Shown piece by piece: positions 17,158-49,709 of a stretch of 64,000 nucleotides of DNA. The position numbers and the translations under genes are program-made. Each line of letters starts with the position of its first letter. The stretch's first letter is position 1. Source of the stretch: Planctomycetes bacterium MalM25 (GTDB lineage Bacteria; Planctomycetota; Planctomycetia; Pirellulales; Lacipirellulaceae); contig CP036424.1 of assembly GCA_007745835.1 (NCBI GenBank), positions 1,883,001 through 1,947,000 on the forward strand. The letters are read 5' to 3'. The notes under the pieces were generated by a model, which saw only the letters and a list, made by a program, of their open reading frames with translations, had not been told where the DNA came from and did not search any database.

Positions 17158-17222
17158 ATCTGGAGCGCGCCCACGTTAGACGCGCGCGGCCCAAGAAACG
17201 GCGCGCTTCACGGACGGGCGCG

Positions 17223-25767: not shown

Positions 25768-25873
25768 CGAATACGACTGTTGGGGGTGCCAATAGGATGT
25801 GATAGGTCGTCAGGGCTCGCGTCGTGCCGACAGTCAAGTGATTAAAGGACTTGCACGCCGATGGCGGCAACTG

Positions 25874-27385: not shown

Positions 27386-27433
27386 AAGGGCGATCGGCCT
27401 GGTGTTGGGTTATCCGCTGGCAAACGAGGGGCG

Positions 27434-27664: not shown

Positions 27665-27699
27665 TCTGCCAGCAAACGCGGTGCGTTCGGGCTCACACC

Positions 27700-29814: not shown

Positions 29815-29828
29815 GGCGGAGGACTCCT

Positions 29829-32153: not shown

Positions 32154-32192
32154 AGGGAGCCTCATCTCAGACGCAGCAGCTACAGCGTTCAT

Positions 32193-33038
32193 TTACGGGC
32201 ACTTCGAGAAACAGCGATCGAAGCACCTCTCGCTGTGGTACTCCACATGGCCGTCGAAGTACAGGATATTTCGCCCGTAGCCCGTTTCGCTCATCGTAGC
32301 GTGCGGGATTTCGAACAGCTCGCTGACGTATTTGCAGAGCCGTCCGCTCTCGTTGATCTGGGTGACCGAGAGCCCCTGGGTGAAGCCCCGCCAGCCGCTG
32401 GTGGGGGGGATATCGACCGTGTTGCACCACATCCACCACGACTTCTTCATGATGTCGGGGCGTTGCACCGGCGGCTTGATCAGCAGGCTCACGGGTCGGG
32501 CGGCATACGCGTAGGTGTTGCCCCAGGCCTCGCCCATCAGGGCTAGGTCGGGGCAGACGAAAATGCCCGAGTAGGGCTCGATGTAGTCGTTCAGCACGAA
32601 GGAGGCCTCCGCGCCGAATTTCTCTGGCCCGGCGTACAACAGGCCACGGTCGGTCAGATCGGGTGACCAGACCTCGTTCGGCGAAACGCGGAAGTTGTGG
32701 CTGCCGACGATCTTGCGACTGTTGTTGATCGGTGTCTCTGAGCCATCATCGGGCTGCTCTTCGTCAGGATCGAAATCCGGGTTCTTGACGATCTCCTCTT
32801 CGTGCCCCCCCAGGTCATCGACCGGGTGTGGGAATCGCCCCTTGTGCGTGTCGCGGTACATGATCGTTAGGAGTCCGATCTGCCGCAGATTGTTCAGGCA
32901 CTGCGTGTAGCGTGCCCGAGACCGGGCCGCTTGGATTGCGGGGAGCAGCATAGCCACCAGGATGCCGATGATGGCGATCACCACCAGCAGCTCCACGAGC
33001 GTGAACGCCCGATAGCGGGGCGTCTTGCGAGAATCCAT
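32193..33038 (-). CDS. DUF1559 pseudopilin-like protein
   Basis: A 281-residue protein with a class III (type IV pilin-like) leader: short basic [10 protein letters not shown], then [20 protein letters not shown], where cleavage precedes Phe and Glu5 is conserved. Planctomycetes encode many DUF1559 proteins with this head, and FDGHVEY near the C-terminus matches the family's FxDGSV motif. ATG 33038 fits the leader and has GGAG upstream. The C-terminus, [14 protein letters not shown], has three Cys. It heads a minus-strand run with the next two genes, 39 bases before the dockerin protein. Confidence 0.88.
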
Positions 33039-33185
33039 CGAAGAACGTCTCCAAACCTCTAGCCATAAGCGCAAACGGCTGTCGTCAGGGCGGATCCGTG
33101 GCCAGACAATCCTTCTGCCGGAATCGATTCGCCCGGGCCGCTCGGCGGATGGCCCACGATTCTTGCGCTTTCGAAGCCGAAATAC

Positions 33186-36042: not shown

Positions 36043-38958
36043 TCAAGGCGAGGTCTCATTCGCCCTGAGTTCTACAATCTCCAGCCCACTCAGGGCGATC
36101 GGTCCTTCAGGCGAGTCGGCGGCGATCCGTAGGAGGACTGGCGCCTCGCCTGAAGCGGTCACGCGAGTCTCCGCGTAGCCGCCAGCCGCCAGGTTCGATC
36201 CGCCGTCGCCAGCGCCACCGCCGCCCGCAGCGGAGACCTGGATCTTCTTGCCGTAGGTCGGCTTGAAGCCGGCTGTAACCGGCTCCTTGTCACGCCCCGC
36301 GTCGTCGACTTGGAAGGCAAGCGGCGGCGCCTCATCACGCTCGCTCACCACGCGATGGTGCCACGTCCGCAACCGGTAGTTGCCCACGGGCAAGCCGGCG
36401 ATCTCGAGTGTCGCCTCGCCGTGAGCGACGGCGGCGTCCTCGATCAGGAAGCAGAGATCACCCGGCACGCCCCACGAGCTGGTCCAGTCGAGGTCGCGCG
36501 GGCTGGTGAGCGTGATCGTGAGTTCACACGGTGTGTCGCCATCGGCGGTGGTTTCGAGGGTCGAGTCGCCCGACTCATGGGTCCACTCGGTCCAGGTTTC
36601 TTGGACGTGTTGTTCGGCGCCCCCGAGATCGACTCTTAGTCGGAGTGGCTCGAAAGGAGGGGCGATCCGGTGTGGGCCTGAACCGGGTTTGTTGAGCGTG
36701 AGCTGCGCGCTGGCGGCGCCAAGACCCTCCGCGCGAGCGGTTAGGACGATCTCGCCGGCTTCACGCCCCACACGCAGCAGCGCCGGCGCCAAGCCCCGCC
36801 GCCAGACGACCGGGTTCGCCCCGATCGAAGCGTCGCCGATGATCTCCGCCGGGCCGCCGACGGTGAACGACACGGGGGGCGTATCGCCCGGGATGACGGC
36901 GCCGTGTTGATCGACGACCGTGGCGTAGGCGTACAGCACGCTCGACCCGTCGGCGGCGCCGCCGAAGCCGTCGGTGTCGATCGTCAGTTCGAGGTGGTGG
37001 GCCGCCTCCGGGATGCGTCGGCGGTGCTCGGCGACGGGCTCTCCGTTGCTATAGCCGACCGCAACCGCCTCGCCCCGCAGCCATTCGACCGGGAAGAGCA
37101 GGGGGGGCGCCTTGAGGTGCTTGTCGCTCGTCGCCGGTTTAAGTCGTGTCCGCTCTTGGCCCGCGACCCGCAGCTCGACCTCGTCGCAGTTTGTGAAGAC
37201 CGTGACGCCATCGTCTCGCTGCGCGCGGTCGTCTGGGATGTAGACCATCGGCTCGTCGGTCAGTTCGGCTTGGTACCAGTGGTAAGCCGGCTTGGGGTGG
37301 CGGAACGGGTCCCACAGCGCGGCGCTCCACACCGAGAGGTTCGGGTATTGCTTGTCACGCTTCTTGAACGAGAACCCATCGTGCGCCGCCCACAGCGCGA
37401 GACCGATCCTCGCCGGGTCCGCCTTGTAACGGGAGACGATCGCCTGGTGGCCGCGTGCGTCGATCGACCCGCTGTGCTCCATCGCGAAGAGGGGCTCTCC
37501 CTCGGGCACGCGGGCGCCACGGTAGTCCATCACCGAATAGAGGTCGGTCACACCAGAGTGGGTCGGACCGGTCCACAGGGTGCTGTTGCTCATGGTGATG
37601 CGGGTCGGATCTTCTTCCTTGGCCGTGTAGTGGAGTCTAGCGATGGGGCCGCGGTGGTTCACACCTCCGCCCCAGCACCACACGCTGGGATGGTTGCGGT
37701 GGTTGCGGATCATGACGCGGGTCGCCCGTTCGAGCCGGTCCATCCAGAGGGGCGGGCCGACCTCGATCCAGGTGGGCGCCTCTTCGGCGACCAGCATGCC
37801 AAGGCGGTCGCACGCGTTGAGGAACTCGTCGTCGTGCGGGTAGTGCGCGAGCCGCACCACGTTAACCCCCGCCCGCTTGAACTTGATCGCGTCGGCCCGG
37901 TGCAGGTTGTCGGGGACCGCGTCACCCATGTAGGGGATCTGCTGGTGGCGGTTGACGCCGATCAACTCGATCGGCTCGCCGTTGAGCAGGAAACCCTCCC
38001 GCGGGTGGTAGTTGAACCAGCGAAAGCCGAGCGGGTTCACGGCCTGGTCGATCGCGTCGCCGCCGGACTCGATCGTCGTGTGAACGTGGTAGAGATTTGG
38101 GTCGTCACACGACCAGAGGCGCAAGCCCTCGGTCACGCCGCCCGTTTGGACGAACGTGTGCGTGCGGCCCGGCTCCACGGCGACCGGGCGGCTGACGAGC
38201 TTTTCGACGACCCGCCCCTCGGGGTCGGCCACGCGGGTGACGACACGGCAAGCGTGCGGCTCGGGGCCGGCGTTCTCGACCGTGGTTTCCACGGTGACGG
38301 TGGCCGAGCGGGGCGAGACCGAGGGCGTCGTGATCCGCACGCCGGCGTCGCGTGCTTCCCAGGGGAAGGTAATCCGCAGCGGATCGGTCACCACCAGACG
38401 CACGTCGCGGTACAGCCCGCCGAACAGGATGTAGTCGCGCCGGTCGCCGTCGGGCGGAACCTCCTCGTTCACGCGGTTGTCGAGGCGCACCGCGACCACG
38501 TTCTCACCCGGCACGACGTGCTCGGTGATCTCGAAGTGGAACGGCGTGTAGCCGCCGGTCGCGTGCTGGCCGAGGTGTTGGCCGTTGACCCACAGGTCGG
38601 TGATCTGGTGAGCCCCCTCGAACTCGAGGAAGACACGCTGCCCAGCTTTCGCCCGGCACGTGAAGTTGCGGCGGTACCAGCTCAGGTCGCGGTGGAAGGT
38701 GAGTTGGTACTGGTCGTCGGGGCTGTCGTCGAGATTGATCGACGTGAGCGCGTAGGTGTGGGGCAGCACGGCCGCCTCCCAGGCGGAGTCGTCGTAGCCG
38801 GACGTCGCGGCGGCTTCGCCCGCGTCGCCTCGGTGGTATCGCCAGTCGAGGTTGAGGTTCTCAACGCGTCGTTCGGCCCGTGCTTCAACGACGCCCTGCA
38901 GGGCGAGCACGACCGTGGCCATGACGAGAGTGCGAGCGCAGCGAGGCGCAGTGTTCAT
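36043..38958 (-). CDS. GH2-type glycoside hydrolase with atypical acid/base site
   Basis: A 971-residue exported protein of GH2 architecture: signal MNTAPRCARTLVMATVVLAL, a jelly-roll sugar-binding domain (YRRNFTCRAKAGQRVFLEFE, TDLWVNGQHLGQHATGGYTP), an immunoglobulin-like domain, and a TIM barrel starting GFRWFNYHPREGFLLNGE with GVNRHQQIPYMGDA. The segment that normally carries Asn-Glu reads NHPSVWCWGGGVNHRGP (about residues 415-431), so the acid/base Glu is absent. The Glu of LFAMEHSG (about 492) could be the nucleophile. C-terminal Ig-like and malectin-like modules follow. Last gene of the GH86-PSCyt1-DUF1501 run. It may be a non-canonical GH2 subfamily or a binding protein. Confidence 0.85.
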   Translation of the reverse strand: MNTAPRCARTLVMATVVLALQGVVEARAERRVENLNLDWRYHRGDAGEAAATSGYDDSAWEAAVLPHTYALTSINLDDSPDDQYQLTFHRDLSWYRRNFTCRAKAGQRVFLEFEGAHQITDLWVNGQHLGQHATGGYTPFHFEITEHVVPGENVVAVRLDNRVNEEVPPDGDRRDYILFGGLYRDVRLVVTDPLRITFPWEARDAGVRITTPSVSPRSATVTVETTVENAGPEPHACRVVTRVADPEGRVVEKLVSRPVAVEPGRTHTFVQTGGVTEGLRLWSCDDPNLYHVHTTIESGGDAIDQAVNPLGFRWFNYHPREGFLLNGEPIELIGVNRHQQIPYMGDAVPDNLHRADAIKFKRAGVNVVRLAHYPHDDEFLNACDRLGMLVAEEAPTWIEVGPPLWMDRLERATRVMIRNHRNHPSVWCWGGGVNHRGPIARLHYTAKEEDPTRITMSNSTLWTGPTHSGVTDLYSVMDYRGARVPEGEPLFAMEHSGSIDARGHQAIVSRYKADPARIGLALWAAHDGFSFKKRDKQYPNLSVWSAALWDPFRHPKPAYHWYQAELTDEPMVYIPDDRAQRDDGVTVFTNCDEVELRVAGQERTRLKPATSDKHLKAPPLLFPVEWLRGEAVAVGYSNGEPVAEHRRRIPEAAHHLELTIDTDGFGGAADGSSVLYAYATVVDQHGAVIPGDTPPVSFTVGGPAEIIGDASIGANPVVWRRGLAPALLRVGREAGEIVLTARAEGLGAASAQLTLNKPGSGPHRIAPPFEPLRLRVDLGGAEQHVQETWTEWTHESGDSTLETTADGDTPCELTITLTSPRDLDWTSSWGVPGDLCFLIEDAAVAHGEATLEIAGLPVGNYRLRTWHHRVVSERDEAPPLAFQVDDAGRDKEPVTAGFKPTYGKKIQVSAAGGGGAGDGGSNLAAGGYAETRVTASGEAPVLLRIAADSPEGPIALSGLEIVELRANETSP

Positions 38959-39025
38959 ACCGGTCCGGTGGGAGAAGGCCCGAGTGAGGTGACGCGCGTT
39001 GGCAAGCCGAGCCGACCGCTGACGG

Positions 39026-40453
39026 TCAGGAGAGGATCGGCTCGATCAGCTCGCCGTGCACGTCGGTCAGGCGGAAGCGGCGGCCCTGGTACTTGTGGGT
39101 GAGCCGCTCGTGGTCGATGCCCATCAGGTGCAGGATCGTCGCGTTGAGGTCGTGCACGTGCACGCCGTCCGAGGCGATGTTGTAGCCGAACTCGTCGGTC
39201 TCGCCGTGCGAGACGCCCGGCTTGATCCCGCCACCGGCGAGCCAGACGGTGAAGCAGCGGGGGTGGTGGTCGCGGCCGTAGTTGTCCGCGGTGAGCACGC
39301 CCTGCGTGTAAGAGGTGCGCCCGAATTCGCCCGCCCACACGACCAGGGTGTCGTCGAGCATGCCGCGTTGCTTGAGGTCGCGGATGAGGCCCGCGGAGGC
39401 TTGGTCGACGTCCTTCGCCTGGCCCGGCAGCTGCTTGGGAAGGTTCGAGTGCTGGTCCCAGCCCTGGTGGTAAAGCTGAATAAACCGAACGCCCCGCTCC
39501 GCCATCCGGCGGGCGAGCAGGCAGTTGGCGGCGAAGGTGCCCGGCTTGCGGGCGTCCTCGCCGTACAGCTCGAAGGTCGACTCGGGCTCGTCCGACAAGT
39601 CGGTCGCCTCGGGGACGCTGGTCTGCATGCGGTACGCCATCTCGTACTGCGCGATACGAGACTCGATCTCCGGGTCGAGCTCCTTCTCGAACTGGTGGCG
39701 GTTGAGCTGGGCGGTGGCGTCGAGTTGCGCGCGGACCCGCGAGCCGCACACGCCGTCGGGATTCGTCAGGTAGAGGACCGGCTCCTTGCCCGCGCGGAAG
39801 CGGACGCCCTGGTACCGCGAGTCGAGGAATCCGCTCCCCCACAGACGGGCGTAGAGGGGCTGGCCCCCTTTGCCGGCGGTCGCCAGCACGATGAACGCGG
39901 GCAGGTCCTCGTTCTCGCTGCCCAGGCCGTAGGACAGCCACGACCCGAGCGACGGACGCCCTGCGATCTGCGAGCCGGTCTGGAACATCGTGATGGCGGG
40001 GTCGTGGTTGATCGCCTCGGTGTGCATCGCCTTGACGAAGCAGATGTCGTCGACGATCTCGCGGTGGTGCGGCAGCAGCTCGCTGAGCCACGCGCCGCTT
40101 TGGCCGTGCTGGGCGAATTTGTAGTGCGACCCGGCCAGCGGCAGCGACGACTGGTTCACCGACATGCCCGTGAGACGCTGCTCGCCACGCACGGCGGGGG
40201 GCAGCTCTTCGCCGTTCATCTTGTTGAGCGTCGGCTTGTAGTCGAACAGGTCCTGTTGCGCGGGACCGCCCGACTGGAACAGGTAGATGATCCGCTTCGC
40301 CTTGGGAGCGAAGTGGGTTCCGACCGGGCCGGCGGTGGCGCTCTGCCCCAGCAGGGCCGACAACGCCGCCGCGCCCACGCCCGCGCCGCTCTGCTGCAGG
40401 AAGTGGCGGCGGTTCACGCCGAGCGGGTTCGGGAAGTTGTGCGATTTCGACAT
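39026..40453 (-). CDS. DUF1501 protein (Tat-exported, sulfatase-like fold)
   Basis: A 475-residue protein with a twin-arginine leader, NRRHFLQQSGAGVGAAALS. DUF1501 proteins are predicted alkaline-phosphatase/sulfatase-fold enzymes that almost always accompany PSCyt1/DUF1549/DUF1553 proteins in Planctomycetes; the exact role is unknown. Typical phrases are RIIYLFQSGGPAQQDLFDYK, HQGWDQHSNLPKQL, VVWAGEFGRTSYTQG and GRDHHPRCFTVWLAGGG. Start at ATG 40453 is two bases after the upstream TGA, implying coupled expression; the frame to 40501 would lie inside that gene. It probably acts in the periplasm or paryphoplasm with the cytochrome partner. Confidence 0.92.
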   Translation of the reverse strand: MSKSHNFPNPLGVNRRHFLQQSGAGVGAAALSALLGQSATAGPVGTHFAPKAKRIIYLFQSGGPAQQDLFDYKPTLNKMNGEELPPAVRGEQRLTGMSVNQSSLPLAGSHYKFAQHGQSGAWLSELLPHHREIVDDICFVKAMHTEAINHDPAITMFQTGSQIAGRPSLGSWLSYGLGSENEDLPAFIVLATAGKGGQPLYARLWGSGFLDSRYQGVRFRAGKEPVLYLTNPDGVCGSRVRAQLDATAQLNRHQFEKELDPEIESRIAQYEMAYRMQTSVPEATDLSDEPESTFELYGEDARKPGTFAANCLLARRMAERGVRFIQLYHQGWDQHSNLPKQLPGQAKDVDQASAGLIRDLKQRGMLDDTLVVWAGEFGRTSYTQGVLTADNYGRDHHPRCFTVWLAGGGIKPGVSHGETDEFGYNIASDGVHVHDLNATILHLMGIDHERLTHKYQGRRFRLTDVHGELIEPILS

Positions 40454-40455
40454 AA

Positions 40456-43400
40456 TCAGCGTTTCCAAACGGTGGCGTCGAGGTTGAGCACGGTGCGGCA
40501 AACGATCGTCATCGCCGCCAGCTCGGTCTTGTCTAGATCTTCGGACGGTTGGCTCTCGCCCAAGGAAAGGAGAGCCGCGGCCGCTTCGGGGTCGGCCCGG
40601 TAGTGCTTGATCTCATCGGCGTGCAACGAGGCCAGGACCTCGCGTTCGGTCTCGTCCGGCCGGCGGCCGGTCAGCGTAACGAAAGCCCAATCGAGGCGCG
40701 ACGCGAGGTCGCCTTCGCGGGACAGCGCCCGCTCGGCGAGCGAGCGGCTCGCTTCGAGGAACTGGACGTCGTTCAGCAGCACGAGCGCTTGCAGCGGGGT
40801 GTTGGTGCGTGCCCGTTTGACGATGCAGACCTCGCGCGACTCCGAGTCGAAGGCCATCATGTTCGGCAGGGGCGCCGTCCGCTTCCAGACCGAGTAGAGC
40901 GACCGCCGGTAGAGCGCCTGGCCGACCGATTGCTTGTACGAGGGGGACATGCTGTTCGACTCGCGCCACAGGTCCTCGCCCGGCTGGTAGGGCGACACGG
41001 GGGGGCCGCCACGCTGCGGGTTCAGGCGGCCCGAAGCGGCGAGCGCCAGATCGCGGATCTCTTCGGCCGATAGACGGTACGCCGGTCCGCGTGCGAGCCA
41101 GCGGTTGTCGCGGTCGTCCTCCGCGAGACTTCCGGTCGCACGCGAGTCCTGGCGGTAGGTCGCCGACAGGACGAGCTGCTTGCTGAACCGCTTCACGTCC
41201 CAGCCGCTCTCGATGAAGTCGCGGGCGAGCCAGTCGAGCAGCTCGGGGTGCGTGGGCGCCTCGCCCTGCAGGCCGAAGTTCTCCGGGGTGCGGACCAAGC
41301 CGGCCCCAAAGAAGCCGCCCCACAGCCGGTTCACCGTCACGCGCGAGGTGAGCGGGTGATCGGGGGCCGTCGCCCAGGCGGCGAGGCCGAGGCGGTCACG
41401 CGGCTGGTCGGCGGGGAAGGGGGGGGCGAGGTCGGTGAACGTGTTGCGGCTGACGAGCGTCTCGTCGCTGCGGGGGGCGTCGTACGCGCCGCGGTGCAGC
41501 ACATGCGCCTCGCGGGGCGTGGCCATCTCGTCCATGACCGGGATCTCGTTGATCGCCTCTTCGGCCGTCACGAACGCTTGGCGGGCGGCGGTCAACTCAG
41601 CCATCGCCTCGCGGGCCTCGGCGTCGACGGCGCTCACGTAGTGGGCGGCGGTCGATGCGATCGACTCGCCGGTGGCGAGGTGCCCGATTTCGGTGTCGGT
41701 CAGGGCGCGGCGGTAGACACGCACGTCGTCGATCAGGCCGCCGTCGAGACCGCGATCGCGGAAACGCTGGCCGATCGTCAGCTTGCCGCCGTGCATGACT
41801 TTGACCAGGGCCCGTTTCTTGATCTGGTCGCGCAAGACCTCGGTCTCGAGCTCAACGCCGTTCACGTAGAGCTTGAGGCCCGCCGCGCGGGAGCGGCCGT
41901 CGTACGTGGCGGTGACCTGGATCCACTGGTCGGCGGGGATCGCCGTCTTGCTGCGTACGCCGATCGCGTTGCCCGGCCAGACGCGGTACATCCGCGATTC
42001 GAGGAAGCCGTCAGTGATCGTCAGATCCCAGCCGTTGAAAGCGAGTTGCCCGCGGCTCACCTGCGCGATGACCGCCTGTTCGGCCGAGCGCTTGGTCTCC
42101 CGCATCGACACGACCAAGCTGAAAGGTGTCCAGCGGTCGAACGCCTCGATCCCCGGCATCACGACGCCCCGCTCGCCGTCGAGCCGAACGGCCATTCGTG
42201 GCGTCTCTTCGCTCGCCGATTCAGCGCCGTCCGCCGAGGCGGTCGGTTTGAGCCTGGGCAGCGGGCTGTCCGTCACTTCGACCGTTGGGAGCGGCTTTGC
42301 CGGGTTGGCGTCCCCTTTGCCGGCGTAGTAGGTCTCCTTCAGTTCCTTCTTGAAGGGGACGTCGAAGCCCAGGGCGAGCACCTGATCGGGGATCTGGTCG
42401 AGCGGTTCGTCGCTGGGGGGCTGGTTGTGCAGACGCTGCTCCGCGTTGGCGACCGCGTCTTGGTAGGCCGCCTCGGCGGCTTCGACCGCGCGTCGGGCCT
42501 CCTCGAGCGTTGCCGCCTGTTCGTCGGTCGGCAGCATGAGCGAGGGGGCGGGGACTTTTTCGCTGTTGTCGTAGACGCCGTTCTCGTCGATCGAGTTGAA
42601 GAACGCCGACAGCGAGTAGTAGTCGCGTTGCGAGATCGGGTCGTACTTGTGGTCGTGGCAGCGGCTGCACTCGAGCGTCAGGCCGAGCACCGCGGTGCCG
42701 AACGTGTGGACCCGGTCGGCGACATTCTCCAATCGCCACTCCTCGAAGACGGCGCCCCCCTCGTTATTCAGCCGGTGGATCCGGTTGAACGCGGTCGCCA
42801 GGCGTTGATCACGTGTCGGGTTCTCCAGCAGGTCGCCGGCGATCTGCCACGTGAGGAAGTCGTCGTACGGCAGGTTGTCGTTGAACGCGCGGACCACCCA
42901 GTCGCGGTACGGCCACTGCGTGTTCAGCTTGTCGGACTGGTAACCGTACGAGTCGGCGTAGCGCGCCGCGTCGAGCCAGGCGACCGCCTGGTGCTCGCCG
43001 TAGGCGGGCGAGGCGAGCAGGCGATCGACCTCGGCCGCGTAGGCCGCCTCGCGGTTGCCCGAATCGGTAAGACGCTGATCGAACGCTTCGATCTCTTCGG
43101 GCGTCGGCGGCAGGCCGGTCAGGTCGAACGTCACGCGGCGGAGCCAGCGGGCGGGCGTTGCCTCGTCTTGTGGTGCAAGGCCGCGGCGCCCGAGCGATTC
43201 GAACACGAAGGCGTCGAGCGGCGTTTTCGCCCAGCCCGAGGTGTCGCCGGCGGGGACCGGCACACTCGCGGGCAGCGGTCGGAAGGCCCAGTGGACCTCG
43301 TACTTGGCGCCCGCCTTGATCCAACGGTCGACCGTCACCTTGGCATCGTCGGTCAGCGACAGCTTCGAGTAGGGGGGCGGCATCATCTCGTCGGGGTCGT

Positions 43401-43647
43401 CGCTGTGGATGCGGCGGGCGACCTCTCCTGATTCGATCGCGTCGCGCGCGGCGTCCTCCAGGTCGAGCCGCAAGTCCGCCTCGCGCGTTTCGGCGTCGGG
43501 CCCGTGGCAGTAGTAGCACTTGTCCGAGAGGATCGGACGCACGTCGCGGTCGAAGGAGACCTCCTCGGCGTGTGCCAGAGAGGGCAACGCGATCGCGACG
43601 ACATAGAGGGCGCACCGGAGCGTGCGAAACAGCTTGGCGGTCGGCAT
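40456..43647 (-). CDS. PSCyt1 / DUF1549 / LamG / DUF1553 protein
   Basis: A 1063-residue planctomycete cytochrome-type protein. Signal MPTAKLFRTLRCALYVVAIA from ATG 43647. The PSCyt1 haem motif is CYYCHGPD (residues 44-51). DUF1549 (about 140-350) contains RRVTFDLTGLPPTPEE and a second haem-like CSRCHDHKYDPI. A LamG/concanavalin-like domain lies at about 480-690 (WTPFSLVVSMRETKRS, GLIDDVRVYRRALTDTEIG). DUF1553 fills the C-terminal third (NRLWGGFFGAGLVRTPENFG, RRSLYSVWKRTAPLPNMMAF). These proteins are thought to couple extracytoplasmic oxidation to degradation of polymers, but no activity is proven. Third of four co-oriented genes with a GH86-like glycosidase upstream. Confidence 0.92.
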   Translation of the reverse strand: MPTAKLFRTLRCALYVVAIALPSLAHAEEVSFDRDVRPILSDKCYYCHGPDAETREADLRLDLEDAARDAIESGEVARRIHSDDPDEMMPPPYSKLSLTDDAKVTVDRWIKAGAKYEVHWAFRPLPASVPVPAGDTSGWAKTPLDAFVFESLGRRGLAPQDEATPARWLRRVTFDLTGLPPTPEEIEAFDQRLTDSGNREAAYAAEVDRLLASPAYGEHQAVAWLDAARYADSYGYQSDKLNTQWPYRDWVVRAFNDNLPYDDFLTWQIAGDLLENPTRDQRLATAFNRIHRLNNEGGAVFEEWRLENVADRVHTFGTAVLGLTLECSRCHDHKYDPISQRDYYSLSAFFNSIDENGVYDNSEKVPAPSLMLPTDEQAATLEEARRAVEAAEAAYQDAVANAEQRLHNQPPSDEPLDQIPDQVLALGFDVPFKKELKETYYAGKGDANPAKPLPTVEVTDSPLPRLKPTASADGAESASEETPRMAVRLDGERGVVMPGIEAFDRWTPFSLVVSMRETKRSAEQAVIAQVSRGQLAFNGWDLTITDGFLESRMYRVWPGNAIGVRSKTAIPADQWIQVTATYDGRSRAAGLKLYVNGVELETEVLRDQIKKRALVKVMHGGKLTIGQRFRDRGLDGGLIDDVRVYRRALTDTEIGHLATGESIASTAAHYVSAVDAEAREAMAELTAARQAFVTAEEAINEIPVMDEMATPREAHVLHRGAYDAPRSDETLVSRNTFTDLAPPFPADQPRDRLGLAAWATAPDHPLTSRVTVNRLWGGFFGAGLVRTPENFGLQGEAPTHPELLDWLARDFIESGWDVKRFSKQLVLSATYRQDSRATGSLAEDDRDNRWLARGPAYRLSAEEIRDLALAASGRLNPQRGGPPVSPYQPGEDLWRESNSMSPSYKQSVGQALYRRSLYSVWKRTAPLPNMMAFDSESREVCIVKRARTNTPLQALVLLNDVQFLEASRSLAERALSREGDLASRLDWAFVTLTGRRPDETEREVLASLHADEIKHYRADPEAAAALLSLGESQPSEDLDKTELAAMTIVCRTVLNLDATVWKR

Positions 43648-43697
43648 AGCGTTGTAGGGTGACGCGGTGTCCATGCGGCTTGGTAGTCGGGTTCCGA

Positions 43698-46619
43698 TCA
43701 GCGTCGCCGCGACAAGAGACTGCAGGCGGTGAGAGTCAGCAGGAGGGCCGTCGGTTCGGGGACGCCTGCCAGGGCGGGAGCGGTCGCCGACACGCCGTAG
43801 TTGGCACGCCAGACAGCGTAGTCAAGATCATCAACAATCGCATCGCCGTTGGCGTCGGCGGCCAGGTCGCTAGTGCTCCCTGCCGCGTCACGCCAAACGG
43901 TGTAGTCCGCGGCATCGACGACGCCGTCCGCGTTGAAGTCGCCTGGAAGGGTGGGAAGGACGACCAAGTCGAGCTGACCGCCGATGCCGTCGCCCGCCCA
44001 TTCCGCGGCGGAGAGGAAGTTGGCGAGCACCGCTTCATCAAGGCCCGCGGGCGCCGTGAGGCCCAGGCCCAAGAGCACGAAGCCATCGACCCCTTGGCCG
44101 GCGGCCGCTTGGGCGCTGACCCAGCCCGCCTGCTGCTCGGTGTCGTCCGCCCACCCGTCGCCGGCGTCGATCGCCGCGTCGAGTTCCGAGAAATCGGCCG
44201 CGCCGCCCAATGCGTCGTCGGTCGAGAGGCTCAGGGCGAGGACTTCCAAGCCGGCGGGGGCTAGATGCAATTCACCGGTCGCGGGGTCGTAGACTAGGTT
44301 CGGGTTGCCGGTTTCGTCGTCGCCCAGGAGGCCGGCCGTTGAACCCCCCTCGACGGCGCCTGTGAAGCCGATGAGCGTGGTCGCGACGTCGACGCCATCC
44401 ACATCGCCATCGGCGTCGAAGTTGCCGCGGGTCCACTCGGGGCGGACGCCCGAGGCGCCCCGGTTGGCGAGCACGGCGACCGCGTCGCGGGTGTCGAGGT
44501 CGCCGTCGACGTCCGCGTCGCCGGCGAGGGTGTTCCGCAGCGCGAGCCACTCGTTGACATCGGCCGCATTGACCTGCCCGTCGCCGGTCAGGTCGTGTCG
44601 GTCGCCCGCGGCGACGGCGCCGAATTGCTGGTAGAGCGCATCGAGGTCACCGCCGTCGAGTTTGCCGCCCCCGTTGTAGTCGCCGATCGAGCGGGTCACC
44701 TCGAGGACGGCCGCGCTGATCGTTCCGCTCGATCCGGAGAAGGGGAAGAAGAAGCTGAGGTCGTTCTGGCCGTCGTTGAGCATGTCGACCGGCACCTCGA
44801 TCTCGCGCATGACGAGGTCGAAGTCGTTGTCGTCGAGCTCCAGTTCGTCGGGCGTGATTGTGAAGGAGTTGCCGTTGACTCGCACGCTGATGGTCGGCAG
44901 CGTTTCCGAAGTCGCACTAAAGCCAAACCGCAGTTTCGCGGCGACGGCGTCCTCGGTGTTGGCGTCGATCGTGGTGGTGAGGAACGACTGCGTGCTGAAC
45001 GCCATCTCGGTGTCGGCGCTGTAGGTCGTGCGGCTGTCGTGGGCGTGGTCGTAGACCTCGGCCCCCGCGAGAGTGAGCACCAGCAAAGCGCCCTCTTCGC
45101 CCTGGAGGGTGAGGTCCTGCCACGAGCCGCTCACGTCGGTGTCGGGCAAGTAGAAATTCTGCCCGCCGAGTCGGAAGGTGCGAGTGAGCTTGGCGTCGGT
45201 CACGCCCAGGGCGCCGAGCGTCTCCAGGTCGATCTCCTGTTCGGCGGATCGCAGGTTGTTGAGCATCACGTAGAGCTGATTTCCGTCACGGTAGGCGACG
45301 CTCTGCAAGTCGGGGTCGCCGGCATCGACCTTCACGTACTCGCCGCGGACCTGGGAGTACATGCGGAACGTATTGCCCACGATGGTCTCAACCCAATCGC
45401 CGCTGGCGTCTTGTTCCCAGAAGACGTTGTCGCCGGCCGGGTTGGTCGGCACGGCGTTCTGCCAGTGGCGCGGCGAGACGAAGGGCGTCGCGTTGATGAT
45501 CCGGTCGGGCCGGTCCATGTAGACGAGCAGCTGCTCGCGGACGTCGCGGACCAGGTCCCACTGCTGCTCGTCGCGAGCGTAGTCGCCGTAGGAGCCGTCG
45601 GCCATGTTCGTCCGGTTCCACGAGCCGTACTCGGTGATCGCGAACTGCTTGGGGTCGCCTAGCGTGTTGTGGCTGTAGGTCTCGAAGAGGTCCATGATCG
45701 CCACGACGTGACCGGGCGAGTGGTGGATGGCCTGCTCGTACGACCCGTCGGCGGCGACGTCGTAACGCTCGTAGTTGTGGATCGTCCAGTAGTCGAACTC
45801 GACGCTCTGACCGCCGGGGGTTTGCCAGGTGGTCATGTCGTCGATCAGCGCCTTCATGTCCGACCAGGTGTTGGAGCCGGTCCCCTCGAACTTATCGCCG
45901 CTGGAAGTCCCCCCGATGCGCAGCTGCGGGTAGGCCTCTTTCACCTGTTCCGTCACCACCCGGTGCAAGTCGATCACGTCGTTCCAGGGGACGCCGGTCC
46001 ACTGCGGCTCGTTCATGATTTCGAAGTAGAAACGGTCCTGCGGGATCGGCAGGAAAGCGTTCGGGCCGTAGACGACTTCCTCGAAGTAGACGTTGAGGAA
46101 GTCGGCGTAGGCCTCGTAGTTGGTGGGCATCTGGGTGCCCGAGTCGAGGTAGTCCGGCCAGAATCCGCCGTTGCGCCCGTTCTGTATGAAGATCGGGTTC
46201 TCGCCTTCACGTAAGGGCTCCCAACGCGAGCTGTTCAATACGTGGTTGCGATAGTCGCCTTGAATCTTGGCGACGGCGGCGGCGGGGTCGATGTAGTCCG
46301 GGCGAGTCGGGTCTTCGGGCAGGTTCTGGGCGATGCCCTGATCGAGGTCGGTCGAGTGGCGCCCGGTGGCGATGTTGAGCCCGTCGGCGGACCAGGTCTC
46401 TTCGACTAGGTTGCCCAGGTTCGTGCTGTTGGGCGCAACGAGGGTGCCGTGGTAATTGAAGAATTGGGCGCGGTCGAGCGAACGGACCCCGCCGGTCATC
46501 GATCGGGCGTCGGTCTCGATCGTGAGGGTGGTCTGCGCCACCGCGCCGGCGCCCGCGCCGCAGGCGATCAGCGCCAGGGCCACGCGCATTCCTTGTCCTA
46601 GTAGACGATTCGCCTGCAT
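43698..46619 (-). CDS. GH86-like beta-agarase/porphyranase with dockerin loops and PEP-CTERM
   Basis: A 973-residue exported glycosidase; signal MQANRLLGQGMRVALALIAC, cleaved near AVAQ. The (beta/alpha)8 catalytic part begins SLDRAQFFNYHGTLVAPNS and LNIATGRHSTDLDQG. Likely acid/base Glu is in FYFEIMNEPQW (about residue 203) and nucleophile in FAITEYGSWNRT (about 330), the clan A arrangement. Beta-sandwich domains follow, then calcium loops (GDYNGGGKLDGGDLD, GDFNADGVVDAADYTVWRD) and the anchor VPEPTALLLTLTACSLL then RRR. GH86 fits best by phrase memory; another clan A family such as GH39 or GH5 is possible. Probable substrates are red-algal galactans. Heads the four-gene minus-strand operon. 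Confidence 0.75.
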   Translation of the reverse strand: MQANRLLGQGMRVALALIACGAGAGAVAQTTLTIETDARSMTGGVRSLDRAQFFNYHGTLVAPNSTNLGNLVEETWSADGLNIATGRHSTDLDQGIAQNLPEDPTRPDYIDPAAAVAKIQGDYRNHVLNSSRWEPLREGENPIFIQNGRNGGFWPDYLDSGTQMPTNYEAYADFLNVYFEEVVYGPNAFLPIPQDRFYFEIMNEPQWTGVPWNDVIDLHRVVTEQVKEAYPQLRIGGTSSGDKFEGTGSNTWSDMKALIDDMTTWQTPGGQSVEFDYWTIHNYERYDVAADGSYEQAIHHSPGHVVAIMDLFETYSHNTLGDPKQFAITEYGSWNRTNMADGSYGDYARDEQQWDLVRDVREQLLVYMDRPDRIINATPFVSPRHWQNAVPTNPAGDNVFWEQDASGDWVETIVGNTFRMYSQVRGEYVKVDAGDPDLQSVAYRDGNQLYVMLNNLRSAEQEIDLETLGALGVTDAKLTRTFRLGGQNFYLPDTDVSGSWQDLTLQGEEGALLVLTLAGAEVYDHAHDSRTTYSADTEMAFSTQSFLTTTIDANTEDAVAAKLRFGFSATSETLPTISVRVNGNSFTITPDELELDDNDFDLVMREIEVPVDMLNDGQNDLSFFFPFSGSSGTISAAVLEVTRSIGDYNGGGKLDGGDLDALYQQFGAVAAGDRHDLTGDGQVNAADVNEWLALRNTLAGDADVDGDLDTRDAVAVLANRGASGVRPEWTRGNFDADGDVDGVDVATTLIGFTGAVEGGSTAGLLGDDETGNPNLVYDPATGELHLAPAGLEVLALSLSTDDALGGAADFSELDAAIDAGDGWADDTEQQAGWVSAQAAAGQGVDGFVLLGLGLTAPAGLDEAVLANFLSAAEWAGDGIGGQLDLVVLPTLPGDFNADGVVDAADYTVWRDAAGSTSDLAADANGDAIVDDLDYAVWRANYGVSATAPALAGVPEPTALLLTLTACSLLSRRR

Positions 46620-47051
46620 CCTGTGCCGTGATTGATTGTGGTGAGGGGGGACCCGGTCGGGAGCGGCGGGAGGCGCCCCCAGAGTTCTCTGCCTGCGGAG
46701 CCCACGGGAAGGCGGGTTCTCGGGATGATGAGCCACACTTGTTCCGGAGCGGGCTCAACCTGGGTCGGTGGTACTTTACTTATGTCCTGAGCCGGGGCGA
46801 GCCGCCACTATTGTAGGCGTGTACGGCGGGTCGATTAGACTGAGCTATGGGCCTCGGCGTTTCGGTAAGTCTTTTTGTGGAAGGGGTTTGCGTTCTGTCT
46901 TGGTGTGGCGGCTCCCTTAATCCTGTTGGTCGGCGTCGGCGGATGCCGGGGACGGCGGACATTACGTTCCCTGCGGGCGGTCCGGCCTCGCTTATTCAGC
47001 AGGTGGGGCCCGACTCAGGTATCTTAGCTGCTCTCTTTCCGCTCCCTCTCG
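46620..47051. other. Divergent spacer between the two glycosidase units
   Basis: No gene is recognised. The spacer separates the minus-strand GH86-like operon from the plus-strand GH2/sulfatase unit and must carry promoters for both. A TACAAT-like box lies on the minus strand near 46811-46816, but without a good -35. No obvious operator palindrome was found. Confidence 0.45.
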
Positions 47052-49550
47052 ATGCGACAAGGCGACGGTCTCATAGTGATTGGCTCCAAGCGATTCGTGC
47101 TCTCGCTCCCCCTGATTTTGGCCGCGGCGGTCTCTGCCCATGGGGAGCGGGCGTCGTTCAACGACGACTGGCGGTTCCACAAGGGCGAAGCCCCCGGGGC
47201 CGAGGCGCCGGCGTTCGACGACGCCGCGTGGCGGTCGCTCCGGTTGCCGCACGACTGGGCCATCGAGGGGCCCTTCGATCCGAAGTACAACGCCCGCTGC
47301 GGCGGCCTGCCGTTTCACGGGACCGGCTGGTACCGCAAGAGCTTCCCGACGCCCGATCTCGCCGGCGGCGAGCGGGTCGCGATCGAGTTCGACGGCGCCA
47401 TGTACGACGCCCACATCTGGGTGAACGGCCACTTCGTGGGCAAACGCCCGTTCGGCTACATCGGCTTCGAGTTCGATGTGACCGACCACCTCACGCGTGA
47501 CGGTTCGCCGAACGTGGTCGCCGTCCGCCTGCAGCCGGAAGACCTCTCGTCCCGCTGGTACCCGGGGGCCGGGCTGTACCGTAACACTTGGCTCAACGTC
47601 CGCCCGGCGGTGCACGTGCCGCAATGGGGCGTCGCGGTCACGACGCCGAGCGTGACCGACGAGATGGCCTCGGTCGCCATCGCCACCGACGTCGTGAACT
47701 CTACCGAGGCCGAGGCGAAGGTCTTTGTCCGGCAGGCGGTTGTTGACGCCGATGGGGAGTCCCTCGCCGAGCACTCGCAGCACCTGACGGTCGCCGCGGG
47801 CGAGAGCGAGTCGGTCCGCCAGCGCCTCGCGCTGATGAGCCCGGAGCGTTGGGACCTCGATAACCCGCACCTCTACCGGTTGGTCACCGAGGTGAAGGAC
47901 GCCGAGGGAGCCGTGGTCGACGCGGTCGAGACCGATTTCGGCGTGCGGACGGTCGAGTTCGGTCCCGAGTTCGGCTTCAAGCTCAACGGCCGCCGCGTCC
48001 CGATGAACGGCGTCTGCATGCACCACGACCTCGGCCCGCTCGGTGCGGCGGTCAATCGGCGGGCGACCGAGCGGCAGCTCGAGATCATGCAGGCGATGGG
48101 CGTCAACGCGATCCGCACATCACACAACCCGCCCTCTCCCGAGCTGCTGGAGCTGTGCGACCGGATGGGGCTGCTCGTCCTCGACGAGGCGTTTGATTGC
48201 TGGCGTAAACCGAAGGTCGAGAACGGCTACAACAAGTTCTTCGACGAGTGGCACGAGCGCGACCTCCGCGACATGATCCGCCGCGACCGCAACCACCCGT
48301 CGGTGGTTCTGTGGAGTATTGGCAACGAGATCATGGAGCAGTGGACGAAGGACGGCTACAAGCTGGCGCGAGAGTTGACCGACATCTGCCACGACGAGGA
48401 CCCCAGCCGCCTGGTCACCGCGGGCTTCAACGGCTATCCCGCGTCGTACAACAACAAGATGGCTCACGAGGTCGACGTGGTCGGCCTCAACTACAAGCCG
48501 ATGTTCTACCCCGAGGCGATCGAGCGTGAGCCCGGCTTTGTGCTGTACGGCTCGGAGACCTCCAGCTGCACCAGCAGCCGCGGCGTCTACCACCTGCCGA
48601 TCGAGGCCTACGTGAAGCACCCCTCGCTGCAGGTGACCAGCTACGACCTGATCGGCCCCAAATGGGCCTACCCGCCCGACATCGAGTTCCAGCAGCTCGA
48701 CCGCAACCCTCGCCTCTTTGGCGAGTTCGTCTGGACCGGCTTCGACTACCTGGGCGAGCCGACTCCCTTCGGCGGCAAGGACAACTCAACGAACGGCTAC
48801 TGGAACGGCGACTGGCCTTCGCGTAGCTCGTACTTCGGTTGCGTCGATCTGTGCGGGCTGCCGAAGGACCGCTTCTACTTGTATCAGAGCCAGTGGACCG
48901 ATGAGCCGATGGTCCACCTGCTGCCGCACTGGAACTGGGCCGACGCCGAGGCCGAAGCGATCCCCGTGTACTGCTACACCAACGGCGACGAGGCGGAGCT
49001 CTTCCTTAACGGCGAGTCGCTCGGCCGGCGGAAGAAGGGCGTCGATACGACGCCCGTAAAGGTCGATTGCTACAACTGGCCGGGCGGCGACCTCGATTCG
49101 CCGTACCGCCTGCGTTGGGACGTGCCATTCCAGCCGGGCGAGCTGCGCGTCGTCGCTTACCGCGACGGCAAGCCGGTCGCCGAGAAGACGATCCACACCG
49201 CCAGTGAGCCGGCGGCGGTCGAGCTCTCGGTCGATCGCGATGCCCTGCAGGGAACCGAGGACCTGGCGTTCGTCACCGCCACGGTCGTCGACGCCGACGG
49301 GAACCCCTGCCCGCGGGCGGACAACCGGATCGAGTTCACGATCGAGGGCCCGGGCCGCGTCGTCGCGGTCGGCAACGGCGACGCCTCGTCGACAGACCCA
49401 TTCCAAGCTGACTGGCGGAAGGCGTTCTCGGGCAAGTGTGTGGCCTACGTCGGCCCGCAGGACGCGGACGCCAGCGGCGAGTTCACGCTCACCGCGCGGG
49501 GCGATGGGCTCCGTCCGCAGTCGGTCCGTGTTGCGATCGCCAAGGATTGA
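47052..49550 (+). CDS. Beta-galactosidase, GH2 (canonical active site)
   Basis: An 832-residue exported GH2 enzyme that would release terminal beta-galactose from oligosaccharides. N-terminus RFVLSLPLILAAAVSAHGE is signal-like. Sugar-binding domain: FNDDWRFHKGEAPG, LPHDWAIEGPF, WYRKSFPTPDLAGG, AHIWVNGHFVGKRPFGYIGF. TIM barrel: GVCMHHDLGPLGAAVN, RTSHNPPSPELLELCDRMG. Acid/base Glu is in SVVLWSIGNEIMEQW (about residue 424) and the nucleophile in LYGSETSS (about 501). C-terminal DUF4982 and Big-like domains follow. Length and order match beta-galactosidases from marine polysaccharide loci. The sulfatase gene follows in the same direction after a palindromic repeat. GTG 47076 is an alternative start. 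Confidence 0.92.
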   Translation: MRQGDGLIVIGSKRFVLSLPLILAAAVSAHGERASFNDDWRFHKGEAPGAEAPAFDDAAWRSLRLPHDWAIEGPFDPKYNARCGGLPFHGTGWYRKSFPTPDLAGGERVAIEFDGAMYDAHIWVNGHFVGKRPFGYIGFEFDVTDHLTRDGSPNVVAVRLQPEDLSSRWYPGAGLYRNTWLNVRPAVHVPQWGVAVTTPSVTDEMASVAIATDVVNSTEAEAKVFVRQAVVDADGESLAEHSQHLTVAAGESESVRQRLALMSPERWDLDNPHLYRLVTEVKDAEGAVVDAVETDFGVRTVEFGPEFGFKLNGRRVPMNGVCMHHDLGPLGAAVNRRATERQLEIMQAMGVNAIRTSHNPPSPELLELCDRMGLLVLDEAFDCWRKPKVENGYNKFFDEWHERDLRDMIRRDRNHPSVVLWSIGNEIMEQWTKDGYKLARELTDICHDEDPSRLVTAGFNGYPASYNNKMAHEVDVVGLNYKPMFYPEAIEREPGFVLYGSETSSCTSSRGVYHLPIEAYVKHPSLQVTSYDLIGPKWAYPPDIEFQQLDRNPRLFGEFVWTGFDYLGEPTPFGGKDNSTNGYWNGDWPSRSSYFGCVDLCGLPKDRFYLYQSQWTDEPMVHLLPHWNWADAEAEAIPVYCYTNGDEAELFLNGESLGRRKKGVDTTPVKVDCYNWPGGDLDSPYRLRWDVPFQPGELRVVAYRDGKPVAEKTIHTASEPAAVELSVDRDALQGTEDLAFVTATVVDADGNPCPRADNRIEFTIEGPGRVVAVGNGDASSTDPFQADWRKAFSGKCVAYVGPQDADASGEFTLTARGDGLRPQSVRVAIAKD

Positions 49551-49589
49551 CCCCGCGTCGAATGACGTCAGCGCTTTAATTTCCCTCGT

Positions 49590-49672
49590 GTAGGAGGCGT
49601 CTCCGACGCCGACAGCGCGCCGCCAGCAAACGCGGCTAGGTGAATCGAATCGGCGTCGGAGACGCCTCCTAC
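49590..49672. repeat. 23-base perfect inverted repeat (possible dispersed element)
   Basis: Positions 49590-49612 (GTAGGAGGCGTCTCCGACGC then CGA) are exactly complementary to 49650-49672, with a 37-base loop containing GCCAGCAAACGCGG. No T-run follows. The arms read GTCTCCGACGCCGAC-like text that looks like a mobile intergenic palindrome rather than a terminator. A partial relative of its loop, TGCCAGCAAACGCGGTGCG, occurs at 27667-27685 within another remnant-bearing spacer. Confidence 0.75.
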
Positions 49673-49709
49673 AGCTCGTCCGATACCGACCTCAATCTTG
49701 TTAGACACG

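Follow-up and report, generated by a model that had tools for sequence, protein, structure and literature searches.

A PSCyt–DUF1501 gene pair within a putative red-algal galactan locus of a planctomycete

In the genome of Planctomycetes bacterium MalM25, the genes for a PSCyt1–PSCyt2(DUF1549)–LamG–PSD1(DUF1553) protein, here called the PSCyt protein, and for a DUF1501 protein lie between those for a GH86-like endo-enzyme and a GH2-family protein (GH2a). The locus type is familiar; its useful part is what it reveals about the unexplained PSCyt–DUF1501 pair, and comparison with relatives suggests, from gene content, which sugar the pair serves. We tentatively propose a red-algal galactan locus in which the two proteins may form an exported, substrate-specific complex performing a redox step on galactan oligosaccharides, a reading that we consider possible rather than probable.

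Gene content and layout of the locus

The window is the whole 64,000-nucleotide stretch that was analysed. The four genes described in the first-pass annotation are borne out by the sequence. All four genes lie on the minus strand between 36043 and 46619 (Table 1) and are separated by 50, 2 and 67 bases (GH86-like/PSCyt, PSCyt/DUF1501 and DUF1501/GH2a, respectively), the first gap being 23 bases if the PSCyt gene begins at the upstream ATG at 43674. No promoter-like site was found at the operon and its terminator-like sites are not above those of shuffled sequences, so that spacing and strand are what argues for co-transcription. A divergent pair of genes at 47052–51227, encoding a second, canonical GH2 (GH2b) and a sulfatase (sulf3), was absent from the first-pass annotation. 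A Pfam scan of 34 window proteins shows no SusC/SusD pair.

Table 1. Features of the locus, in window coordinates
Feature	Position	Strand	Basis
GH2-family protein GH2a, without acid/base Glu	36043..38958	-	Pfam, PDB matches, alignment
GH2a segment GGVNHR in place of canonical ..GNE	37651..37668	-	Alignment with 59%-identical homologue and canonical GH2s
DUF1501 protein	39026..40453	-	Pfam, predicted model, Foldseek, hhalign
His166 codon of DUF1501, nucleophile column	40004..40006	-	77/77 rows; aligned with sulfatase catalytic Cys
PSCyt1–PSCyt2(DUF1549)–LamG–PSD1(DUF1553) protein	40456..43647	-	Pfam, sequence, two CxxCH
PSD1 (DUF1553) domain	40627..41397	-	Pfam; hhalign match to a DUF1800 segment
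Laminin_G_3 domain, predicted lectin-like jelly roll	41686..42078	-	Pfam, Foldseek
PSCyt2 (DUF1549) domain	42586..43221	-	Pfam; CxxCHDHK at 42655-42669
First CxxCH, in PSCyt1	43504..43518	-	Sequence
GH86-like endo-galactanase (agarase/porphyranase type)	43698..46619	-	Pfam, PDB matches, catalytic Glu alignment
Divergent intergenic region, GH86/GH2b	46620..47051		
Second, canonical GH2 (GH2b), divergent from operon	47052..49550	+	PDB match; NE kept
Sulfatase (sulf3), 3' of GH2b	49698..51227	+	PF00884; PDB match

The GH86-like protein matches Porphyrn_cat_1 (7.1e-12) and Dockerin_1 (9.7e-5) in Pfam, and contains Dockerin-like repeats and a C-terminal tail that, by eye, is PEP-CTERM-like. Matching solved GH86 structures are 8h97 (a beta-agarase, 2.3e-32), 5ta1 (2.8e-27) and 4aw7 (GH86A beta-porphyranase, 1.1e-16), with 5ta0 within range. 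E203 (in an NEP motif) and E329, the other catalytic Glu, do not vary across five aligned GH86-like sequences. Because the closest solved GH86s include agarases, porphyran is not separable from agarose, and the substrate of the window enzyme may be either. Carrageenan, named in the first-pass annotation as a growth substrate to try, finds no support.

GH2a has the GH2 domain set, as seen from Glyco_hydro_2_C (1.1e-20, Pfam) and PDB matches to GH2 structures. Its acid/base Glu (..GNE) is missing: the segment reads GGGVNHRG in GH2a and AGGVNHRG in a 59%-identical homologue (genome G394), and the putative nucleophile Glu (MEHSG) is retained in both. This loss was absent from the first-pass annotation. 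There the pair is enclosed by two glycosidases; both genes do flank it, but the description is weakened by the missing acid/base residue of GH2a. The divergent GH2b retains NE and matches PDB 5t98 with 1071 bits, a structure that we take to come from the same study series as the Bacteroides uniformis NP1 locus. Sulf3 matches PF00884 (2e-43), with 9bas (S1_15A) as its best PDB match (7e-46).

The DUF1501 and PSCyt proteins

The DUF1501 protein (Pfam, 6.3e-163) carries a twin-arginine motif, identified by eye. Its predicted model (pLDDT 86.7) resembles the alkaline phosphatase/sulfatase superfamily fold, with Foldseek matches to 1p49 (1.5e-6) and 1ajc (1.6e-6) at a probability of 1.00 and low TM-scores of about 0.28–0.40; hhalign against sulfatases gives a probability of 95.4 (E 2e-8). 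Six residues, H166, D349, H351, E392, H412 and D451, are invariant in all 77 DUF1501 rows. The Ser, Thr or formylglycine (Cys) nucleophile is missing from all of these rows, from each of the genome's 14 further DUF1501s and from the ten DUF1800-linked DUF1501 rows that reach the column. With an invariant His at this position in the profile alignment and residue counts, a plain sulfatase or phosphatase reading of DUF1501 is weakened, and with it the sulfate- or phosphate-cleaving step first suggested for the pair.

DUF1501 might nevertheless be a sulfate or phosphate ester hydrolase or transferase in which His166 is an atypical nucleophile, or in which the metal site activates a water. PSCyt would then bind and present the substrate, with its hemes in a regulatory role. 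The superfamily resemblance, found both by Foldseek and by profile, and the conserved Asp/His/Glu set would fit such an activity. So would the surroundings of the pairs: a sulfatase gene lies within 10 kb of 7 of the 15 pairs of the genome (circular-shift mean 3.0, P 0.027), which makes sulfated substrates likely. The test used 62 of 66 sulfatase rows, excluding the second half of each of two split genes, a row that falls within a DUF1501 gene and a weak one at 861983, and 16 of 17 DUF1501 rows; circular-shift and random figures vary slightly between runs. In a subset of 11 genes, picked after the data had been seen, 7 are within 10 kb of a sulfatase (P 0.003). However, significance is lost when the distance is set to 5 kb (P 0.095) or to 15 kb (P 0.109), canonical sulfatases already adjoin the locus, and the standard nucleophile is absent from all three sets of DUF1501 sequences. 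We consider ester cleavage by DUF1501 unlikely.

The PSCyt protein contains PSD1 (1.2e-96), PSCyt2 (1.8e-80), Laminin_G_3 (7.4e-16) and PSCyt1 (1.3e-10) domains, in agreement with the LamG domain previously assigned to it, as well as the CxxCH motifs of PSCyt1 and PSCyt2 and, by eye, a Sec-type signal. C336, C339, H340, D341, H342 and K343 of PSCyt2 are invariant in a 79-row alignment, both CxxCH motifs are present in 78 of the 79 rows, and the protein is predicted to carry two c-type hemes. Foldseek matches listed for its AlphaFold2 model (pLDDT 89.5) are mostly lectin-like jelly-roll domains, the top ones being clostridial neurotoxin binding domains; these were dismissed as a clue to function, since they reflect the LamG fold alone. 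No fold match for PSCyt2 or PSD1 is found among the best 50.

Profile comparison shows that PSD1 is remotely homologous to part of DUF1800, another partner of DUF1501 (hhalign against a 30-protein DUF1800 profile, probability 90.4, E 1.4e-6). Two proteins chosen as weak DUF1800 matches (L173 and L174) match both the PSD1 and DUF1800 models below the curated cut-off (1.7e-5 and 1.1e-4). The window PSD1 segment matches PSD1 alone in Pfam at E up to 5, with no PF08811 match; the DUF1800 proteins L117 and L118 fall below the PSD1 model threshold, and PSCyt2 alone matches DUF1800 weakly (probability 9.7). With flanks of 1.5 kb, 7 of the 30 DUF1800 loci show no neighboring DUF1501. The DUF1800-linked DUF1501 proteins keep the same conserved His/Asp/Glu-Phe-Gly-Arg residues. 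CxxCH occurs in none of the 30 DUF1800 proteins examined, so that heme may be dispensable for the core chemistry. For the oxidative step originally envisaged for the pair the evidence points both ways: the predicted hemes fit it, but the DUF1800 partners of DUF1501 lack CxxCH.

The shared DUF1501 partner and the PSD1–DUF1800 homology are also what one would expect if the pair were a surface module for assembly, binding or delivery, with a PSCyt/DUF1800-like scaffold and a chaperone-like DUF1501 fitted to various substrates, and not a polymer enzyme. The LamG domain, found with the same HMM in only 2 of the genome's 14 remaining PSCyt ORFs, looks like an exchangeable binding part, and, according to the available text of PMC5122149, other bacteria have DUF1501 and DUF1800 linked to genes for chitin synthase. 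Against such a module, which seems to us rather improbable, the invariant His, Asp and Glu residues of DUF1501 resemble an active or metal site, and 78 of 79 PSCyt rows retain both heme motifs.

We tentatively favor a redox complex acting on galactan fragments. The locus would serve the use of red-algal galactan (agar or porphyran), which the GH86 enzyme would cut, and PSCyt and DUF1501 would form an exported, substrate-adapted complex. DUF1501, exported by its putative Tat-type signal, would provide a site rich in His, Asp and Glu that probably binds metal, set in an alkaline-phosphatase-like scaffold now devoid of the nucleophile. PSCyt would contribute PSD1 as a DUF1800-like scaffold, LamG as a lectin-like domain and a pair of c-type hemes. 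In the fragments, galactose or L-galactose units may be what the complex acts on, most likely by a metal- or heme-dependent oxidation, with electrons leaving through the PSCyt hemes.

The pair across the genome and at orthologous loci

All 15 PSCyt2 genes of the genome have a DUF1501 gene on the same strand within 4.7 kb. Among 80 related loci, DUF1501 lies within 1 kb downstream in 72, four more end at a contig edge, and in L004, L009, L019 and L027 none is found within that distance. Other pairs of the genome adjoin GH3, GH29, GH92, rhamnosidase or lactonase genes (10 chosen neighbors at 8 loci). A 3-keto-sugar pathway was considered for the pair and rejected: PF06439 domains adjoin two relatives of the pair (L101 and L107), but in this genome 3-keto-disaccharide hydrolase genes lie within 10 kb of 0 of the 15 PSCyt2 genes, the nearest at 11.1 kb.

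One 110-kb contig of a genome from the same genus bears the closest homologue of each of the six genes, rearranged and accompanied by five GH86 genes, with identities of 58% (GH86), 59% (GH2a), 69% (PSCyt), 83% (DUF1501), 75% (GH2b) and 61% (sulfatase). On this contig a different GH86-like gene stands directly 5' of the PSCyt–DUF1501 pair; its product is only about 24% identical, and the order GH86-like/PSCyt/DUF1501 is thereby repeated in a second genome. As GH86 is scarce, occurring in 2 of 392 genomes that span the phylum and 3 of 43 in the family, the repeated order is more than chance. In another genus, GH2b (74%) and the sulfatase (66%) are directly 5' of the pair on the same strand.

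Three further genomes (L103, L105 and L106) have an operon of UxaE, aldo-keto reductase, amidohydrolase and Zn-alcohol dehydrogenase genes directly 5' of the pair's orthologue. UxaE of these relatives matches the tagaturonate/fructuronate epimerase 9lhu (2.6e-84), and the other three (AKR, Amidohydro_2 and Zn-ADH) are assigned by Pfam only, the AKR having no PDB match at 1e-15. Judged by these assignments, the operon looks like one for L-galactose catabolism; in an established route, as given in the available part of PMC12632266, L-galactose and then L-galactonate are oxidized to reach D-tagaturonate. Of the 10 clade genomes having UxaE, 3 carry it no more than 10 kb from the pair, with 0.037 expected under uniform placement, and two of the three share a genus. 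Its presence anywhere in the genome is associated with the clade both inside the family (7/8 clade genomes versus 16/35 others, P 0.037) and outside it (3/6 versus 0/12 same-order genomes without a match, P 0.025), kinship being ignored in both comparisons.

Galactan or L-galactose genes are thus present at 6 of 8 orthologous loci inside the family, L101 and L104 having none, compared with 0 of 8 outside. These neighborhoods uphold the proposal that the operon is galactan-linked and gives the pair a candidate substrate. They do not extend it to the pair in general: neither GH86 nor the L-galactose set is near any of the 80 related loci from other taxa or any of the 8 extra-family clade members, and the galactan link may therefore be a family-level habit. 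Six extra-family orthologues, which serve as an independent test of the link, have no GH86, GH2 or L-galactose genes.

At most of the orthologous loci outside the family the neighbors are unrelated (transporters, kinases, a methyltransferase). Together with the many paralogues in the genome, this could mean that the pair serves respiration or housekeeping in a generic way and that its galactan neighbors are incidental in each genome. We find this the least plausible account, given that one PSCyt clade is recurrently linked to galactan genes in rearranged form (three genomes) and to the L-galactose-type operon (three others), and that other pairs of the genome have the GH3, GH29, GH92, rhamnosidase or lactonase neighbors mentioned above.

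Known systems and implications for the pair

For freshwater Verrucomicrobia, He et al. (2017, PMC5615132) have already proposed that PSCyt clusters play a carbohydrate role. As far as the accessible text of that study goes, these clusters likewise combine PSCyt1, PSCyt2, PSD1 and Laminin_G_3 with a conserved adjoining gene family of unknown function and often with nearby sulfatases. In contrast to the present pair, which sits inside a GH86/GH2 locus and has a substrate suggested by relatives, their density is inverse to that of GH genes and no substrate is named.

The agarose locus of Bacteroides uniformis NP1 (PMC5849685) resembles the window in joining GH86 and GH2 for a red-algal galactan, and GH2b has the 5t98 match given above; the available sections of that report name 5T9A/5T9G for GH2C. 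Unlike the window, in whose 34 scanned proteins none of these is found, the NP1 locus has Sus-type transport and binding proteins and GH16/GH117, and the same sections do not mention a PSCyt/DUF1501 pair. GH86, GH2 and S1 sulfatase genes also occur together in the porphyran locus of Bacteroides plebeius, for which the accessible part of PMC12316285 mentions no heme/DUF1501 pair. The S1_11 L-galactose-6-sulfatase described there is not the best match of sulf3 (7lha 5.9e-18 and 7snj 3.2e-15, versus 7e-46 for S1_15A).

The DUF1800–DUF1501 pair (PF08811/PF07394; PMC5122149) is alike in its DUF1501 partner, the conserved residues and the DUF1800 segment common to PSD1; it differs in that DUF1800 proteins lack CxxCH and do not belong to the PSCyt proteins. 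In Luteolibacter LG18, a dual L-glucose/L-galactose pathway employs L-galactose and L-galactonate dehydrogenases to form D-tagaturonate, as proposed for the relatives' operon, but with a tagaturonate reductase instead of UxaE, and the portion of PMC12632266 at hand does not mention the PSCyt/DUF1501 pair.

More broadly, and doubtfully, DUF1501 could represent a class of the alkaline phosphatase superfamily in which replacement of the nucleophile with His has turned ester hydrolysis into metal-dependent redox chemistry, with DUF1800-like scaffolds as partners. In planctomycetes and their relatives these scaffolds would have gained hemes and sugar-binding modules, giving rise to substrate-specific sugar-oxidising complexes, of which this locus would hold the galactan/L-galactose one.

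PSCyt/PSD1 and DUF1501 genes number dozens per planctomycete or verrucomicrobial genome, and their function is not known; Rhodopirellula baltica has 41 copies each of the PSCyt2 and PSD1 domains, according to the accessible text of PMC2754498. The change from nucleophile to His and the DUF1800 link suggest that a plain sulfatase is not to be expected, and point to where else the same chemistry should occur. A PSCyt clade tied to one polysaccharide and one catabolic route would give the pair a defined substrate.

Gene arrangement and glycosidases

The source genome of 4.72 Mb is a single contig, of which the window spans bases 1883001–1947000. The four-gene set, as placed in the first-pass annotation, is correct, with minus-strand genes separated by 50, 2, and 67 bases. 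Inspected by eye, the sequences show a Sec-type signal in PSCyt, a twin-arginine motif in the DUF1501 protein, and a PEP-CTERM-like C-terminal end in the GH86-like protein. No promoter or terminator signals above shuffled controls are found at the row.

Genes of the locus, in window positions
Gene product	Position	Strand	Placement
GH86-like protein	43698–46619	−	First of four minus-strand genes
PSCyt1-PSCyt2-LamG-PSD1 protein (PSCyt)	40456–43647 (alternative start 43674)	−	Second in row
DUF1501 protein	39026–40453	−	Third in row
GH2-family protein (GH2a)	36043–38958	−	Fourth in row
Second GH2 (GH2b)	47052–49550	+	Divergent, upstream of the four-gene row
Sulfatase	49698–51227		Divergent, upstream of the row, alongside GH2b

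The PDB matches of the GH86-like protein include agarases and one porphyranase, and both catalytic Glu residues are invariant in an alignment of five GH86-like sequences. Since the GH86 of B. uniformis was judged an agarase according to PMC5849685, agarose and porphyran are both possible substrates. Its dockerin/PEP-CTERM-like tail (GH86 residues about 920–1012) recurs in several unrelated proteins, both of the window and of other loci in this genome (29829–32192, 34466–36031, 53929–56184).

GH2b matches PDB 5t98 with 1071 bits and keeps the ..GNE motif of canonical GH2. GH2a has GGVNHRG at this site, as does its 59%-identical homologue in the same-genus genome G394; at the nucleophile position, both retain a Glu. 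This subfamily, with the acid/base motif replaced, is seen in two genomes (GH2a and L100:2759–5974, L100 being the PSCyt locus of G394). Two readings follow for GH2a: an enzyme specialised to do without the acid/base, or a binding protein. The earlier description of the pair as enclosed by two glycosidases is therefore not established.

Elsewhere in the window, SDR, enolase-superfamily (MR_MLE), and PfkB kinase genes lie in tandem on the minus strand (24988–28632); they resemble a sugar-acid pathway and could be part of galactan breakdown. At 28642–33074, a MauG/MbnH-like di-heme protein ORF overlaps that of a 787-residue dockerin-bearing protein and is followed by a DUF1559/pilin-like protein. 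DUF1254/DUF1214 proteins are interleaved with two sulfatases at 12068–18851.

The PSCyt–DUF1501 unit and its relatives

PSCyt and DUF1501 form a unit. In this genome, each of the 15 PSCyt2 genes has a same-strand DUF1501 gene within 4.7 kb; at two loci the order is reversed, with one gene between. The PSCyt2 proteins of these two (L090 and L091; G000:C1:2870000–2880000 and 930000–937000) are short and have a single CxxCH, and DUF1501 lies upstream. Among the best 80 of at least 588 related PSCyt loci, from several phyla, DUF1501 lies less than 1 kb downstream in 72 and is absent within 1 kb in 4; a contig end truncates another 4.

The top structural matches of the DUF1501 AlphaFold2 model (pLDDT 86.7) are alkaline phosphatases and sulfatases (1p49, 1.5e-6; 1ajc, 1.6e-6; probability 1.00), with low TM-scores of about 0.28–0.40. 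Comparison of the DUF1501 profile with 24 sulfatases (probability 95.4, E 2e-8) aligns His166 with the catalytic Cys and Glu392-Phe393 with the Asp-Asn metal site. His166, D349, H351, E392, R395, H412, and D451 are invariant in 77/77 rows. In DUF1501 proteins adjoining DUF1800, another partner family, D349, H351, E392-F-G-R395, D411, and H412 are kept in 23/23, and His166 in all 10 rows spanning its column (13 fall short of it). The predicted metal site is likely. Because His166 sits at the catalytic Cys column and is conserved throughout, classical-type ester cleavage is unlikely, which argues against the sulfate- or phosphate-cleaving step first suggested for the pair. A His-dependent hydrolase is a rival explanation.

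PSD1 matches a 30-protein DUF1800 profile over 59 columns (probability 90.4, E 1.4e-6), against 0.1 for the reversed profile. PSCyt2 and PSD1 together give 83.9 (E 7.7e-6), with reversed and ten column-shuffled controls at or below 1.1; with PSCyt2 alone the value drops to 9.7, so DUF1800 homology is supported for PSD1 only. Two proteins from planctomycetes that carry Pfam PSCyt2 and PSD1 domains, selected via their DUF1800 match, match DUF1800 below the curated cut-off (1.7e-5 and 1.1e-4); the window's own PSD1 has no match to this model. DUF1501-like ORFs adjoin 23/30 DUF1800 genes. CxxCH occurs in 0/30 DUF1800 proteins, and two such motifs in 78/79 PSCyt rows. From these comparisons, we conclude that PSD1 and DUF1800 have a domain and the DUF1501 partner in common, and that the predicted hemes are an addition in the PSCyt branch. 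A narrow literature search found no paper holding both DUF1553 (PSD1) and DUF1800.

Proteins matching both PSCyt2 and DUF1800 models (L173, L174, L175:2161–4119, and L176:81–3285) are possible intermediates between the branches. The gene after the L176 protein encodes a TAT-signal protein matching phosphodiesterase, sulfatase and, weakly, DUF1501 models.

Linkage to galactan and putative L-galactose genes

GH86 is found in 2/392 genomes across the phylum and 3/43 of the family. In G394, all five GH86 hits lie on one 110-kb contig. By one-way best BLAST hits, this contig carries the closest homologues of the sulfatase (61%), GH2b (75%), and GH86 (58%) in the divergent layout of the window, then an L-galactose-type operon, GH2a (59%, divergent), a second GH86-like gene, PSCyt (69%), and DUF1501 (83%). 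The GH86-like/PSCyt/DUF1501 order recurs there with a GH86-like protein 24% identical to the window's. The contig (G394:C11; L159, L160, L100, L161–L163) holds several sulfatases, two PSCyt–DUF1501 pairs, and a further partial PSCyt. In G404, of a different genus, GH2b, sulfatase, PSCyt, and DUF1501 are consecutive on one strand.

In three relatives (G409, G396, and G393), the pair is preceded on the same strand by UxaE, aldo-keto reductase, amidohydrolase-2, and Zn-alcohol dehydrogenase genes, with Pfam domains determined in one of the three. UxaE matches 9lhu (2.6e-84) and is firmly assigned by sequence as a relative of tagaturonate/fructuronate epimerase. A pathway from L-galactose through L-galactonate to D-tagaturonate is reported for Luteolibacter (PMC12632266), and by analogy we infer that this operon may run the same steps. 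In the MalM25 genome, the four genes lie together at 2176980–2181829; this cluster is 252 kb away from the window operon, adjoins two sulfatases, and has a GH86-like gene at a distance of about 10 kb.

The window PSCyt belongs to a clade of 16 (support 100/100, 28-row tree). Galactan or putative L-galactose genes are nearby in six of its loci (window, L100, L102, L103, L105, and L106) and absent in ten (L001, L002, L101, L104, and L167–L172), that is, present in 6/8 inside the window's family and 0/8 outside. The link is not seen in L167–L172, six loci outside the family fetched as a test of it; UxaE occurs elsewhere in 3/6 of these genomes vs 0/12 controls. Neither GH86 nor the UxaE/aldo-keto reductase/amidohydrolase set is found in the best 80 of at least 588 related loci. 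The placement beside galactan genes could be incidental. UxaE lies within 10 kb of the pair in 3/10 clade genomes (two of the three share a genus), against 0.037 expected under uniform placement (Poisson 8e-6). The link is therefore real within the window's family and not a general property of the pair, and the candidate substrate proposed earlier is upheld at that level only.

Around eight further pairs of this genome, ten neighbours chosen by hand, without a base rate, include at six loci GH3, two GH29 alpha-L-fucosidases, a rhamnosidase, GH92, an apiosidase-like protein, and an SMP-30 lactonase with Zn-alcohol dehydrogenase; the others are a kinase and an FG-GAP/ASPIC protein. Sulfatase genes lie within 10 kb of 7/15 pairs (mean 3.0 expected, P 0.027); with the limit set to 5 kb (P 0.095) or to 15 kb (P 0.109), the excess is not clear. 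These neighbours agree with the view, published in PMC5615132, that PSCyt genes accompany carbohydrate genes.

Proposed role of the pair

The likeliest reading, which we hold tentatively, is an exported PSCyt–DUF1501 complex. Galactan fragments would be bound via LamG, and the DUF1501 His/Asp/Glu site and the PSCyt hemes would together perform an oxidative step on them. Such a complex is favored by the hemes and the nucleophile loss, as well as by the Tat-type signal of DUF1501 and the putative oxidative L-galactose genes close to the pair. Against it stand the heme-free DUF1800 branch and the distance of 3-keto-disaccharide hydrolase genes, found within 10 kb of 0/15 PSCyt2 genes in this genome; the pair could instead be a binding or assembly module.

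The occurrence of galactan genes with the PSCyt pair extends an already known association. Added here are a candidate substrate, a clade for testing it, the missing nucleophile, a PSD1–DUF1800 link, and a GH2 without acid/base.
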